A stretch of DNA of 64,000 nt from Cyanobacterium stanieri PCC 7202 (lineage in GTDB: Bacteria > Cyanobacteriota > Cyanobacteriia > Cyanobacteriales > Cyanobacteriaceae). Every line of letters starts with the position of its first letter. The stretch's first letter is position 1. The notes below the pieces were generated by a model. The model worked only from the letters and a program-made list of their open reading frames with translations. It made no database searches and was not told the DNA's origin. The position numbers were made by a program, and so were the translations under genes. The stretch is taken from positions 2,117,547 to 2,181,546 of the forward strand of contig CP003940.1 of the NCBI GenBank assembly GCA_000317655.1, written 5' to 3'. Positions 13,403 to 23,707 of this stretch are shown piece by piece.

Positions 13403-15499
13403 ATGATGACCAAAAAAAATGCTCTGTGGATAGAAGGCAATAGTCGTTGTGGCAAAACCACAGCTTTAGTTAATCAATTAGAAAAATGGATAGAAGAAGA
13501 AAAAACAAAACAGTCCATTCCTCTTATTAAACCCCCTTTAATCATATCTGCTAATCGAGAAGAAAGAACTAATTTACAAAAACTAATTTTTAGTCAGATT
13601 AAAGATTTAGATTGCACCATAGAAATTCAAACTGTTTCTGGTTTTATCATCAATGAAGTGGAGTTATTTTTTCCCCTTATAGCTAAGGAATTAAATCTTA
13701 AAAATCCTTTTCCTATTCGTTTATATCCTGAAACTGAGCAAGAATTAGCATCACAATTATGGCGAGATTCTCTTAGTGCTGAATTACTTTCTTTATTTGG
13801 GAATGAATCTACTTGTGTTCGTCGTTTATTAGATTTATTACAATTAGCTGGAATGGCAGGTATTCCTTTTGAAGATATTGGTAATCGGCTAAAAAATGGT
13901 CAAGTTTTTTTAGGAGATTCTTTTGATGATAATATTTGGAACACCATTGATGAACTATTATCCCAATGGCGTGTATGGTGTTTAGAAAAAGGCTTATTAA
14001 GTTATGGTATTATCTACGAAATATTTTGGCGTCATCTTTTTCCCCATCAAGATTATCAAAAGAGTTTGTTAAATAGATATGGTGCTGTTTTTGCTGATGA
14101 TTTAGATAATTATCCCGCTGTTATGGGGGATATATTTAACTTTTTTATTACCCGTGAATATAACTGTATTTTTACTTATAATCATAAAGGAAAAGTTCGA
14201 CTAGGATTAAACGCAGATCCCGATTATTTAGCAACTATTTCTAATCGTTGTCAAAGAGAATTATTAACATTTTCTCCTGTTGATAATCTATCTAGTAAAT
14301 TAGAAAATTCTTTAAAACTATTAATTGAAGAAAATACCCTTGATAGGGATGATTTTGAAAACATTTTTTCCTTTAAAACTCGATCTAGGGCTCAGTTAAT
14401 TAAAGAAGTATCTTTTTTTATTATTGATAAGATTCAACAAGGTATAATAAGTCCTGCGGATGTTGCCATCATTGCCCCCGGTTTAGATGAAGTTGCCCGT
14501 TTTAATTTCCTTCATTTTTTCCACGAATATAACATCCCTGTGGAGCCTTTACAGGAGAAACGCCCCCTGATTGCCTCCCCCCTCGTGCGATCGCATTTAA
14601 CCCTATTAGGATTAATTTTCGGGGGCAATGGGCGATTAATTGAAAGGGATATGGTGGCGGAAATGTTGACGGTTTTATCTCCCAAATCGGACACTGAATT
14701 TGGTATACAACCCCATATTGATCCTGTGAGGGCAGGACTCCTCGCCGATTATTGTTATCATATTGATATAGAATCACCCCATCTCTTACCCATTGATTAT
14801 ATCCCTTCGGGCGATCGCCTCAACTACCAAACTTTTATCGCCTATAACCAAATCAAAAACTGGATAAATCAAACCAAACAAGAAGTCAAAGAAAAAAAAC
14901 TGTCACCCTTAGCGATTATCGATAAAATCAATCAGCAATATTTCAACGACATCCAATCCCTTACCTACACCCAAATTAACAACCTACGAGAATTTAAACA
15001 AACCGCCTCCCACTTTTGGGCAATTCAAAATAGACTAGGCAAAGATAAACAAATTATCCCATCCCTCACAGAATTTATCATTCTCATACGCAAAGGTACC
15101 ATTACCGCCAATCCCTATCCTGTTAACCCCCTACTAGAAAACAAAAAAAACAAAGGGATAACCCTTGCTACCATTTATCAATATCGCACCTCCCATCAAA
15201 GCCATCCTTGGCAATTTTGGCTCGATGCAGGTTCAACTCTTTGGAGTAAAGGAGGCGCTGCAGAATTATTTGCATCCTCCCTTTTCCTGCGAGGATGGGA
15301 TGGAAAACCCCTCAGCTTAGAATATCAACAACAACAAGAAAAAGAAAGAATAGATCGAGTTATCCATGATTTATTATCCCGTGTTACCGATAAAATCTTT
15401 CTATGTCACAGTGACTTAGACATTAATGGTAATGAACAAATGGGCAGTCTGTTAAATCTCATTTACCTTGCCCCTACCATAGAACAAATCAGCAATTGA
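13403..15499 (+). CDS. Superfamily 1 helicase-like protein (recombinase-like)
   Basis: A 698-residue protein with an N-terminal Walker A loop EGNSRCGKTTAL (11-22) and a helicase-type motif II FADDLDNYP near residue 230 in place of DExx. Motif III-like FTYNHKGKVRLGLNADPDY follows, then a motif IV-like VAIIAPGLDEVARFNFL. The C-terminal motif VI region (LLSRVTDKIFLCHSDLD) lacks the arginine-rich VALTRA pattern of UvrD/RecB. It resembles proteins annotated as recombinase family in cyanobacteria. ATP binding is plausible; unwinding activity is uncertain. Two consecutive ATGs begin the gene directly after the menD stop. Confidence 0.75.
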   Translation: MMTKKNALWIEGNSRCGKTTALVNQLEKWIEEEKTKQSIPLIKPPLIISANREERTNLQKLIFSQIKDLDCTIEIQTVSGFIINEVELFFPLIAKELNLKNPFPIRLYPETEQELASQLWRDSLSAELLSLFGNESTCVRRLLDLLQLAGMAGIPFEDIGNRLKNGQVFLGDSFDDNIWNTIDELLSQWRVWCLEKGLLSYGIIYEIFWRHLFPHQDYQKSLLNRYGAVFADDLDNYPAVMGDIFNFFITREYNCIFTYNHKGKVRLGLNADPDYLATISNRCQRELLTFSPVDNLSSKLENSLKLLIEENTLDRDDFENIFSFKTRSRAQLIKEVSFFIIDKIQQGIISPADVAIIAPGLDEVARFNFLHFFHEYNIPVEPLQEKRPLIASPLVRSHLTLLGLIFGGNGRLIERDMVAEMLTVLSPKSDTEFGIQPHIDPVRAGLLADYCYHIDIESPHLLPIDYIPSGDRLNYQTFIAYNQIKNWINQTKQEVKEKKLSPLAIIDKINQQYFNDIQSLTYTQINNLREFKQTASHFWAIQNRLGKDKQIIPSLTEFIILIRKGTITANPYPVNPLLENKKNKGITLATIYQYRTSHQSHPWQFWLDAGSTLWSKGGAAELFASSLFLRGWDGKPLSLEYQQQQEKERIDRVIHDLLSRVTDKIFLCHSDLDINGNEQMGSLLNLIYLAPTIEQISN

Positions 15500-20709: not shown

Positions 20710-20741
20710 TTGTCCATTGTCCATTGTTAATTGTCCATTGA
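20710..20741. repeat. STRR array, TTGTCCA heptads, overlapping the kinase start
   Basis: Units of TTGTCCA with one degenerate unit (TTGTTAA) run into the start region of the sensor kinase. The upstream-most possible TTG start at 20731 is itself part of a heptad. Confidence 0.75.
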
Positions 20742-22103
20742 TTTCCCCTTGTTCCAAACCACCAGAAGACGTTTAGCCCTTTACTACACCATCGTCACCG
20801 CCGTATTATTGATCATCTTTGCCATGGGGATTTATGGCTACGTCTATAAAACCCTCATTGATAGGATTGATGATACCCTTAAACACGTGGTGGAAATCGT
20901 TGAACCTTCCCTCGTTATTGATAATGTCAGTTTGGAGGAAGGGAGATATAAATTAAATGTCAACGCCAGTTTTCGTCAACATCCTGACACCACCAACAAG
21001 GTAGAAGATGATCACATTGATTTAGAATGGTTTAGTCCTAATGGCGAATTACTGTGGCAAACTTTAGAAGAGCCTTTACCTATTCCCCTTTCCTTCCATT
21101 CTGGGGGAAAAACCATCCGTATCTCCTCCGATTATCTCCTACGACAAATCACCAAACGAATTGAAGTGGGGCGCTATGTATTGGGTTATCTGCGGGTAAG
21201 TCATCCCCTTTTTGATGTTATCAAACCCATCCGTCAATTAATTACCGATTTAATTATTGGTGTACTATTGATGATTACCTCCGTAGGGGCGATCGGTTGG
21301 TTCTTATCAGGCATTGCCATTCAACCTGTAAAGGAATCCTATCAAAGTTTAAAACAGTTTACCGCCGATGCTTCCCACGAGTTGAGAAATCCCATCGCTA
21401 CTATTAAAACTAATGTTCAAACTCTCCTAGCTTATCCTGAAATAGAACCCGAACAGAATAAAAAACAGTTGGAAATCGTTGAACGTTTAACCCAAAGGTT
21501 ATCCAATTTAGTCAATGATTTATTATTTTTAGCCCGTAGTGATAGCGGTATTATTACCCCTGTTTTTCAACCTCTTCCCCTCGATTCTTTATTATTAGAA
21601 GTAGTAGAAGAACAAAGAATTATTGCCCAAGCTCAATCCATTAATTTATCTTTAGAAATTATTGATGATATTCCCGAATTAAATTCAAAAGATGTGGATC
21701 ATAATGATGATTTATTTACCATAGAAGGGGATTGGGGACAATTATCAAGGTTATTTACTAATTTAATTAGTAATGGTATAATTCATGGTTTTTTAGACAG
21801 TAAAAATAAAAACAAGGCAATTCAAGTAATATTAAAAACCTTTAAAAAAATAGCAAAATATATTATCAAACTCAGATAAAAGATAATGGTATGGGTATAG
21901 AAAAAGAGAATATTCCCCATCTGTTTGATCGTTTTTATCGAGGAGATTCTGCCCGTAGTTATCGGGATAACAATAATAGTAATACAGGATTAGGCTTGGC
22001 GATCGCCCGTGCCATTGTCGAAAACCATAAAGGCAGTATCAAAGTAGAAAGTAACCTCAACGAAGGAACAACATTTATGGTAAACCTGCCTAATCATCAT
22101 TAA
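20731..22103 (+). pseudogene. Sensor histidine kinase, frameshifted at an A7 tract
   Basis: The first frame encodes two membrane helices around an extracytoplasmic domain (about 41-165), the phosphoacceptor H-box ADASHELRNPIATIK, and an N-box region WGQLSRLFTNLISNGIIHG. It ends prematurely at 21879. The catalytic G1 and G2 boxes (IKDNGMGIEKEN and NTGLGLAIARAIVENH) continue in another frame to 22103. Adding one A to the A7 run at 21844-21850 joins both halves without a stop. Possible starts are TTG at 20731 or, more likely, TTG at 20749 (then FQTTRRRLALYYT). No response regulator is adjacent. Sequencing error, recent inactivation or slippage are all possible. Confidence 0.85.
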
Positions 22104-22106
22104 AAT

Positions 22107-23707
22107 TTAGGTGTTATGGTTCATCAACAACTCTTCTTGAGTCACCTGTAAATTTCTACCCTCATAAACATAAAAAGTTTCCACCACAACCCCTGCCCTT
22201 TCGAGGGGAATTTGAGCAACAGGAGTCAAACTATCAAAATATCCTGCCATCTCATCCATCAACTGCGTATCCTGTGCAAAAACCTCGATGGTAATATACA
22301 AACCATCTTGCCCCCTCAAATCATCCACAGGTTGCCATATACCAAAACCCCTGACATCATTACTAATACAAGTAAGAGGTATATCGATCATATCCTCATT
22401 TTGTGCCAATCCCATACCAATATACCCCCCTAAATAATAGGCATTGGTAAAAACAAAATCGCTGTTATTAATCCCTTCTCTAAATAAAGGAGAAGAATCA
22501 AATCTTTCCCCTAACTGTACTACATCAATTAATTCCGTAGAAGGATCATTTTCTGGGGTTAAAATACCCAAGGGAAATATAGGATTAGGACTTTGTAATG
22601 CCCCTGTAGTTACATGAATCAGAATAACCGTCAATAGGGTATAAATGGTTATGGCTGAAAAAGATAACCAATTTTCTATTTTTTTGGAAATTCCCTATCC
22701 CATGCACAAACATAATGACCAAATATAATCGTTAATCCCCAAAATCCGGGCATCGCCCAAGTAGGTAAAATTTGAGTAAATGCCCCCAAAATAGTAAAGC
22801 CAACAGTTAAAGGTAAAGAAACCCAAAGAATTAACTGATTGGGGTAGTGAGGGCGACTAAATATTTCAATCAAAAATGAACGAACAGTTACCCACCATAG
22901 GGGAATACCAAAACTAGGAAATAAATAACCAATCCCTGCCAAGAAGAAAACAATTAAATTAAGGATATTAATTTGTACATCCGAAGATGATTCAAAACGT
23001 CCTGAAAGTTGAAAACCAAAAGATACCCAGTCATGTTGCCAATTCCAATACCAAAGAGGAAAAAGAGTAAGTAAAAACAACAGCAAGGATAGTAAAAACC
23101 AAGAGGAAGTAAATACTTTTCGATAGGGTTTACTACTGAGACAAAAACCAACTAATCCCATTCCCAACAAAAAACCATGATATTTACTTAAACAAGTCAA
23201 ACCCATTAAAATTCCTATAATGGCGAGACGATAACTAGGTTTATATTGCCAGTCAGAATTAAAAAATTCCTCACTAACGACGTATAGAGTTAGTGTCCAA
23301 AAAAAGATGAGTGGTACATCAGGCAGGGTAAGAATGCCGAAAGCAATTTGAAAAATGGGAATTAAAGAAGCAATGATAAGGGCAAAAAAACCCGCTGACT
23401 CGTTATAAAGTTTTTTGCCCGTCAGATAAATTAAGTATAAACTGGCAGTATGTAATATTAGAGTACCGATACGGATGGTAAATTGATTGACAATCCCTGT
23501 TATCCAAACCCCTATTCCCGTAGTGAAGGCAACGAGGAGAGGGTGATCAAAATAACTCCAGTCAAGGTTTTTGCTATAGAGATAGTAGTAGGCTTCGTCA
23601 TAACCAGGGTTGAGGAAAAAGGCGATGACACTGCGGACAATCAAACCTAGTATCAAGATAAAATAGACTTGTTTCTGGATATTTTGTTTTTCTTTGGTGG
23701 TACTCAT
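22107..23707 (-). pseudogene. GT39/ArnT-like membrane glycosyltransferase, frameshifted at an A7 tract
   Basis: The first 343 residues form a multi-pass membrane protein with the lumenal acidic motif GYDEAYYYLYSKNLDWSYFD near the N-terminus and the DHPLLVAF segment, typical of dolichyl- or undecaprenyl-phosphate-sugar transferases. The frame ends EFPKK-stop at 22676. A further membrane helix and the soluble C-terminal part continue in another frame to 22107. One extra base in the seven T of the plus strand at 22679-22685 (A7 in the coding strand) restores a single protein of about 535 residues. The downstream part alone has no good start. Confidence 0.8.

Follow-up and report, generated by a model that had tools for sequence, protein, structure and literature searches.

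A frame break at an A7 tract in a glycosyltransferase gene of Cyanobacterium stanieri PCC 7202, possibly due to local miscounting of a homopolymer in the genome record

Coding sequences interrupted at short homopolymer tracts have been described in several settings, of which sequence error is one. According to the available part of PMC4687164, a PacBio-finished genome contained approximately 240 under-called homopolymer sites, most of them in runs of 4-8 bases, and 142 of its coding sequences were falsely frameshifted. One category of singleton frameshift genes is expected to represent sequencing errors rather than genuine indels (PMC3711429, available part), and we take this category to be that of genes with a full-length homologue. 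The same source lists A_AAA_AAA as a slippery sequence for ribosomes, and describes poly-A switching via slipped-strand mispairing in other bacteria. As far as the available parts of the respective papers go, ribosomes correct at an oligo-A tract in chloroplasts (PMC8254509), polymerase slippage is usually evident from nine A's, with eight perhaps sufficient in Nostoc and a threshold that varies by genome (PMC1088944), and single-base frameshifts arise in cultured cyanobacteria, as in spkA and glcP of Synechocystis substrains (PMC10068330).

Here we describe a glycosyltransferase gene of Cyanobacterium stanieri PCC 7202 that is interrupted at an A7 tract within a window of 64,000 nucleotides (the whole stretch of DNA analysed; positions 2,117,547 to 2,181,546 of contig CP003940.1), drawn from a source chromosome of 3,163,381 bases in one contig. 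No paper on this site was found among the literature matches listed. We lean towards a local homopolymer miscount in the PCC 7202 assembly as the explanation; most likely, the break does not represent a new biological mechanism. Coordinates of this and the other frame breaks are summarized in Table 1.

Table 1. Frame-break features in the window (plain coordinates) and at sampled loci of the chromosome (L numbers, with genome coordinates where available).
Feature	Position	Strand	Remark
A7 tract, glycosyltransferase frame break	22679..22685	-	T7 on + strand
TAG in frame, immediately 3' of A7	22676..22678	-	read from sequence
Glycosyltransferase N-terminal part, 343 aa, PMT_2	22676..23707	-	78.5 bits vs cut-off 26.1
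Glycosyltransferase C-terminal part, 189 open codons, neighbouring frame	22107..22675	-	relatives' open frame common to both parts
A7 in sensor kinase, TAG after A7 out of frame	21844..21850	+	sequence
Kinase N-terminal part, HisKA	20731..21879	+	ends at TAA 21877-21879
Kinase C-terminal part, HATPase_c, from first ATG	21891..22103	+	profile match
Kinase and glycosyltransferase breaks	L092	convergent	accepted
WD40 gene break between two A7 runs	L075 ~5971, genome ~796,816	-	frame and homology
Two adjoining accessory-gene breaks	L079 ~17689 and 14836	-	frame evidence alone
L079 gene pair	L079:13625-18344, genome ~1,120,808-1,125,527	-	both broken at A7
MTHFR break	L085 ~13625		A7C5 stretch, one base too many
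MTHFR gene	L085:12874-13774, genome ~1,594,564-1,595,464		A7C5, one base more than HL-69 frame needs

At the break the glycosyltransferase frame reads CCA AAA AAA TAG, the homopolymer being A7, as an assembly homopolymer error would need. The upstream open reading frame (23707..22676) terminates at this TAG and passes the cut-off of the PMT_2 profile (PF13231) over residues 54-221, and the downstream frame is open to 22107, extending from its first start codon over 22634..22107; neither half was matched in NCBIfam. The original prediction, that an A7 is followed by TAG on the coding strand and that a one-base shift rejoins the downstream remainder, was borne out on both points, since the TAG is in frame and both halves match a single open frame in relatives.

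Of the 14 other genomes of the genus and family searched, 12 contained an intact, stop-free glycosyltransferase frame of 526-550 aa, the gene not being found in G001 (63% complete) or G012. With the C-terminal half as query, eight of nine other genus and family genomes matched where the full-gene matches predict; the matches in G002 and G003 cross one stop, which we interpret as the normal end of the gene. For the neighbouring kinase, the best match was an open frame of 438-531 aa with no stop in all 39 other genomes, that of G029 (E 3e-27) perhaps being a paralogue. The kinase spot carries A8 in four of the six relatives inspected (G001, G003, G004, and G011) and A6 in the other two (G002 and G010), and in G003 this A8 is followed by TAG, yet the gene is intact. 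At the glycosyltransferase spot an A run is absent in the same-genus genomes G002-G004, on which the comparison rests as distant relatives align too loosely to judge; in G003 an A6 occurs a few bases further along. A scan of genome contigs yielded 15 relatives, with identities of at most 65%.

The cut-off half of the glycosyltransferase yields dN/dS values of 0.24 (G003), 0.28 (G004), and 0.28 (G002), compared to 0.25, 0.26, and 0.22 for G002, G003, and G004 among themselves, and values for the cut-off half of the kinase are 0.10-0.17, although synonymous distances mostly lie near or above 0.6 and dN/dS cannot separate a recent break from a record error. A signal of relaxed selection or decay is absent from both cut-off halves in these comparisons with relatives, and the break is therefore either recent or not real; old decay was rejected on dN/dS together with the open frames. 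The original prediction had dismissed chance decay, which holds insofar as both genes look recently intact and goes too far insofar as a real recent deletion is a less probable alternative. As a separate observation, the N-terminal part of the kinase (window 20731-21840) has an unusually low dS to G004 (0.31, versus 0.60 for the C-terminal part and ~1.1 for the glycosyltransferase), possibly reflecting gene transfer or gene conversion. The adjacency of the two genes (window 20731-23707) is absent in G003, where they lie at C1:2,181,149 and C1:517,722, and in G004 they are on separate contigs.

The kinase and the glycosyltransferase are convergent, adjoining genes of unrelated families, and their A7 tracts are separated by 829 bases and embedded in an identical decamer, AAAAAAATAG. 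The original prediction had described both sites as A7-TAG approximately 830 bases apart; the distance and the decamer are as described, but the kinase TAG is out of frame, the phase there being TTT AAA AAA ATA GCA and the stop actually met being the downstream TAA. Nor did the decamer prove to be a special motif, as it occurs 97 times in the genome (77 times for a reversed control pattern). In a sample of 1.6 Mb, half of the chromosome, taken as 80 segments of 20 kb at even spacing, it was found at 36 sites, 20 of them with coding sequence on both sides, and 18 of these are in frame; the two broken ones are the kinase and glycosyltransferase themselves, and the string is usually harmless. Of 1129 tracts of exactly seven A's in this sample, 26 have TAG as the next three bases, and the other accepted breaks have flanks that differ from this decamer.

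The same 1.6 Mb were surveyed using a 3-periodic Markov model for frame changes and a test of every run of at least six bases with coding sequence on both sides. In-frame coding tracts comprised 777 A6, 244 A7, 86 A8, and 7 A9 or longer, along with 86 T7, 14 T8, and 91 G or C tracts of at least seven. Six breaks were accepted, all at homopolymer-dense spots; breaks at A7 are rare considering the 244 in frame, and the tract test found no shifted coding A6. The Markov model returned 231 transitions, 54 of them without a nearby ATG; 17 sites in the PCC 7202 sample were inspected and nine translated, most others being classed as gene boundaries without comparison to homologues. The thresholds of the tract test miss the glycosyltransferase and L079:14836, and the test counts the WD40 locus twice, such that its four same-sense A7 shifts amount to three loci. 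A further weak A7 transition of the same sense (scores 18 and 10) lies at L096:13603, two A6 transitions with no ATG close by at L068:5492 and L082:2278, and a weak A8 transition at L099:2968; L163:15793 was rejected as a gene end. We also observed a transposase-like gene on the minus strand (L068 ~6212), which appears TnpB-like by eye and is apparently broken at A5.

Cyanobacterium sp. HL-69, as which we take G003, served for comparison. In 0.8 Mb of G003 both A7 candidates (L123:16576 and L180:14471) were rejected as gene ends, and no A7 break was accepted. Comparison of G003 proteins with the PCC 7202 sample gave 257 intact pairs and one break, in the gene for methylenetetrahydrofolate reductase (MTHFR); in the opposite direction there were 244 intact pairs, with the MTHFR break again and one break in a repeated G003 gene (L109 ~2380), to which six copies in G003 itself point. 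As a control, this last break argues against a clean contrast between the two genomes.

No second MTHFR gene was found in the genome, and the one present reads as interrupted close to the C-terminus: one frame matches the profile as far as position 246, and the next frame continues the match from 248, though weakly (16.4 bits; cut-off 24). Judging from the pathway, it would be hard to accept that a phototroph had truly lost its only MTHFR. The C-terminal half of the WD40 gene has good matches in eight of nine other genomes of the genus and family, within open frames of at least 502 aa, and between its two A7 runs G003 has GGG where PCC 7202 has GG, suggesting that the missing base may be a G. 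One of the L079 genes encodes a coiled-coil protein weakly matched by an AAA profile and the other a protein weakly matched by DUF2357, all of these scores falling below the cut-off; the gene broken at ~17689 has only distant matches, in three of the other genomes, and the one broken at 14836 was found in none of the 14. Their layout is, we presume, reminiscent of McrBC-like defence systems.

The PCC 7202 sequence was presumably obtained by 454 plus Illumina sequencing. Counting A8 versus A7 tracts in other genes, the check proposed in the original prediction, revealed no assembly-wide loss of A8, as the in-frame coding A8:A7 ratio is 86:244 in PCC 7202 and 42:103 in HL-69 (Fisher p 0.50), a genome produced with PacBio and Illumina (PMC5805888). 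The absence of a genome-wide shift to shorter runs relative to HL-69 excludes systematic, though not local, error, and assembly-wide under-calling of A8 was rejected. Four of the six breaks (the kinase, the glycosyltransferase, and the L079 pair) resemble an A8 minus one base, with A8 in relatives shown for the kinase break only. If these four are counted as short A8 tracts, 4 broken versus 86 in frame for A8, set beside 0 versus 244 for A7 in the tract test, gives p 0.005; compared to G003, where 0 are broken and 42 in frame, the same 4 versus 86 is not significant (p 0.31). A bias towards A tracts on the coding strand was discarded as a candidate, coding T tracts being too few to judge it (86 T7 and 14 T8 in frame; A8 vs T8 p 1.0). 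Two breaks at most 850 bases apart among five or six random events have a simulated p of 0.0105 or 0.0155, calculated after the pair was seen, and two close pairs among five or six breaks a probability of 0.0003 or 0.0008, also computed post hoc and including the window's own pair.

The intact homologues and the undecayed cut-off half, together with the concentration at A7, the closeness of the breaks, and the broken sole MTHFR gene, make a miscount the likeliest explanation, and we infer an incorrect number of bases in the record. The record would be one A short in the A tract of an otherwise healthy glycosyltransferase gene, creating a false TAG, and the cell would possess one frame encoding one membrane glycosyltransferase of ~530-550 aa. 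The kinase break is probably an error of the same type in the same stretch; given that the two genes are convergent and of unrelated families, a locally poor consensus would explain both more simply than two mutations. Against one uniform under-call, the MTHFR gene is off in the opposite direction and the base missing from the WD40 gene may not be an A. Hence the under-calling proposed in the original prediction is upheld as the likeliest cause locally, on the intact homologues, the lack of decay, the MTHFR break, and the close breaks, and is not upheld for the assembly as a whole.

A real and very recent one-base deletion through slippage during replication in a former A8, fixed in the strain or culture, is possible though doubtful. 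The glycosyltransferase would then stop after 343 aa and probably be off. Same-sense breaks at A7 with none of the 777 coding A6 tracts shifted are what would be expected if A8 loses one base, and the Synechocystis substrains provide precedents in culture; the L079 pair, moreover, consists of adjoining accessory genes prone to joint decay. However, two unrelated genes, with tracts 829 bases apart, would each have had to lose a base recently and independently, one being the kinase, for which all 39 other genomes have a match, and the sole MTHFR gene would be broken in addition.

Much less probable is a real break that is partly corrected, either by ribosomes slipping -1 on A_AAA_AAA or by a polymerase adding an A, to give some full-length protein. 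In the glycosyltransferase the heptamer is in phase immediately 5' of the stop (CC A_AAA_AAA TAG), of a kind with the slippery sequence and the chloroplast correction cited above, and the coding sequence 3' of the break is conserved. In the kinase, however, the phase differs (TTT AAA AAA ATA), such that a single mechanism cannot serve both sites; a stimulatory RNA fold was not detected downstream of either tract (z -0.36 and -0.12, the glycosyltransferase value being matched by 68 of 200 shuffles); and the frameshift site is not conserved, as relatives have one open frame, with no A run at the spot in G002-G004. A Shine-Dalgarno-like AGGGAA noted by eye five bases 5' of the glycosyltransferase heptamer was given no weight because -1 frameshift stimulators sit approximately ten bases from the slippery site. 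The differing phases, the lack of conservation and of a fold, and the 18 in-frame coding decamers led us to reject a programmed frameshift or shared slippage signal; the shared slippage habit suggested in the original prediction is likewise not supported by the phases, folds, and decamers or by the other flanks elsewhere. A tract of seven also falls short of the nine A's from which polymerase slippage is usually evident (PMC1088944, available part), and even A8 is insufficient in tobacco plastids, according to the part of PMC8254509 available.

It is also highly improbable that short A tracts with frame breaks are tolerated or exploited by C. stanieri in several conserved genes (kinase, glycosyltransferase, and MTHFR) owing to unusually good correction by its ribosome or RNA polymerase, the breaks thereby serving as low-level expression valves; if reads confirmed the breaks, tolerance of frameshifts at such tracts could be studied naturally in a free-living cyanobacterium. 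A phase-variation switch, in which the enzyme is made with eight A's and not with seven, is scarcely credible: glycosyltransferases are common phase-variable genes and poly-A switching has the precedents mentioned at the outset, but a tract of seven to eight bases is short for such a switch, the spot lacks an A run in G002-G004, the sample contains 86 in-frame coding A8 tracts, and no cyanobacterial example was found among the literature matches listed.

It is important to note that six genes in the sampled half of a reference chromosome read as broken, the sole MTHFR gene included, which constitutes a quality flag. The record alone is not a sufficient basis for concluding that C. stanieri has lost the sensor kinase, the glycosyltransferase, or MTHFR.

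Compared to known systems, the glycosyltransferase site shares an in-phase A_AAA_AAA with ribosomal frameshifting at A_AAA_AAA or A_AAA_AAG (PMC3711429, available part), and differs from it in being unconserved and without a stimulatory fold, with the kinase in the wrong phase. Transcriptional slippage at about nine A's (PMC1088944, in its available sections) likewise places an A run at the frame break, whereas the run here is unconserved and too short for most of the genomes surveyed there. The frameshifts in Synechocystis PCC 6803 substrains (spkA, glcP; PMC10068330, available part) resemble the present case as one-base frame breaks affecting a kinase or a membrane protein in a laboratory-grown cyanobacterium; there several substrains were resequenced, whereas PCC 7202 is represented by a single record. 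The under-calls in Clostridium autoethanogenum (PMC4687164, as far as available) were assembly-wide in a PacBio-made sequence, at the ~240 sites mentioned above, while PCC 7202 has few sites, an unshifted run-length spectrum, and discrepancies of mixed sign; what the two share is sequence one base short in runs of ~4-8, false stops within conserved genes, and intact homologues.
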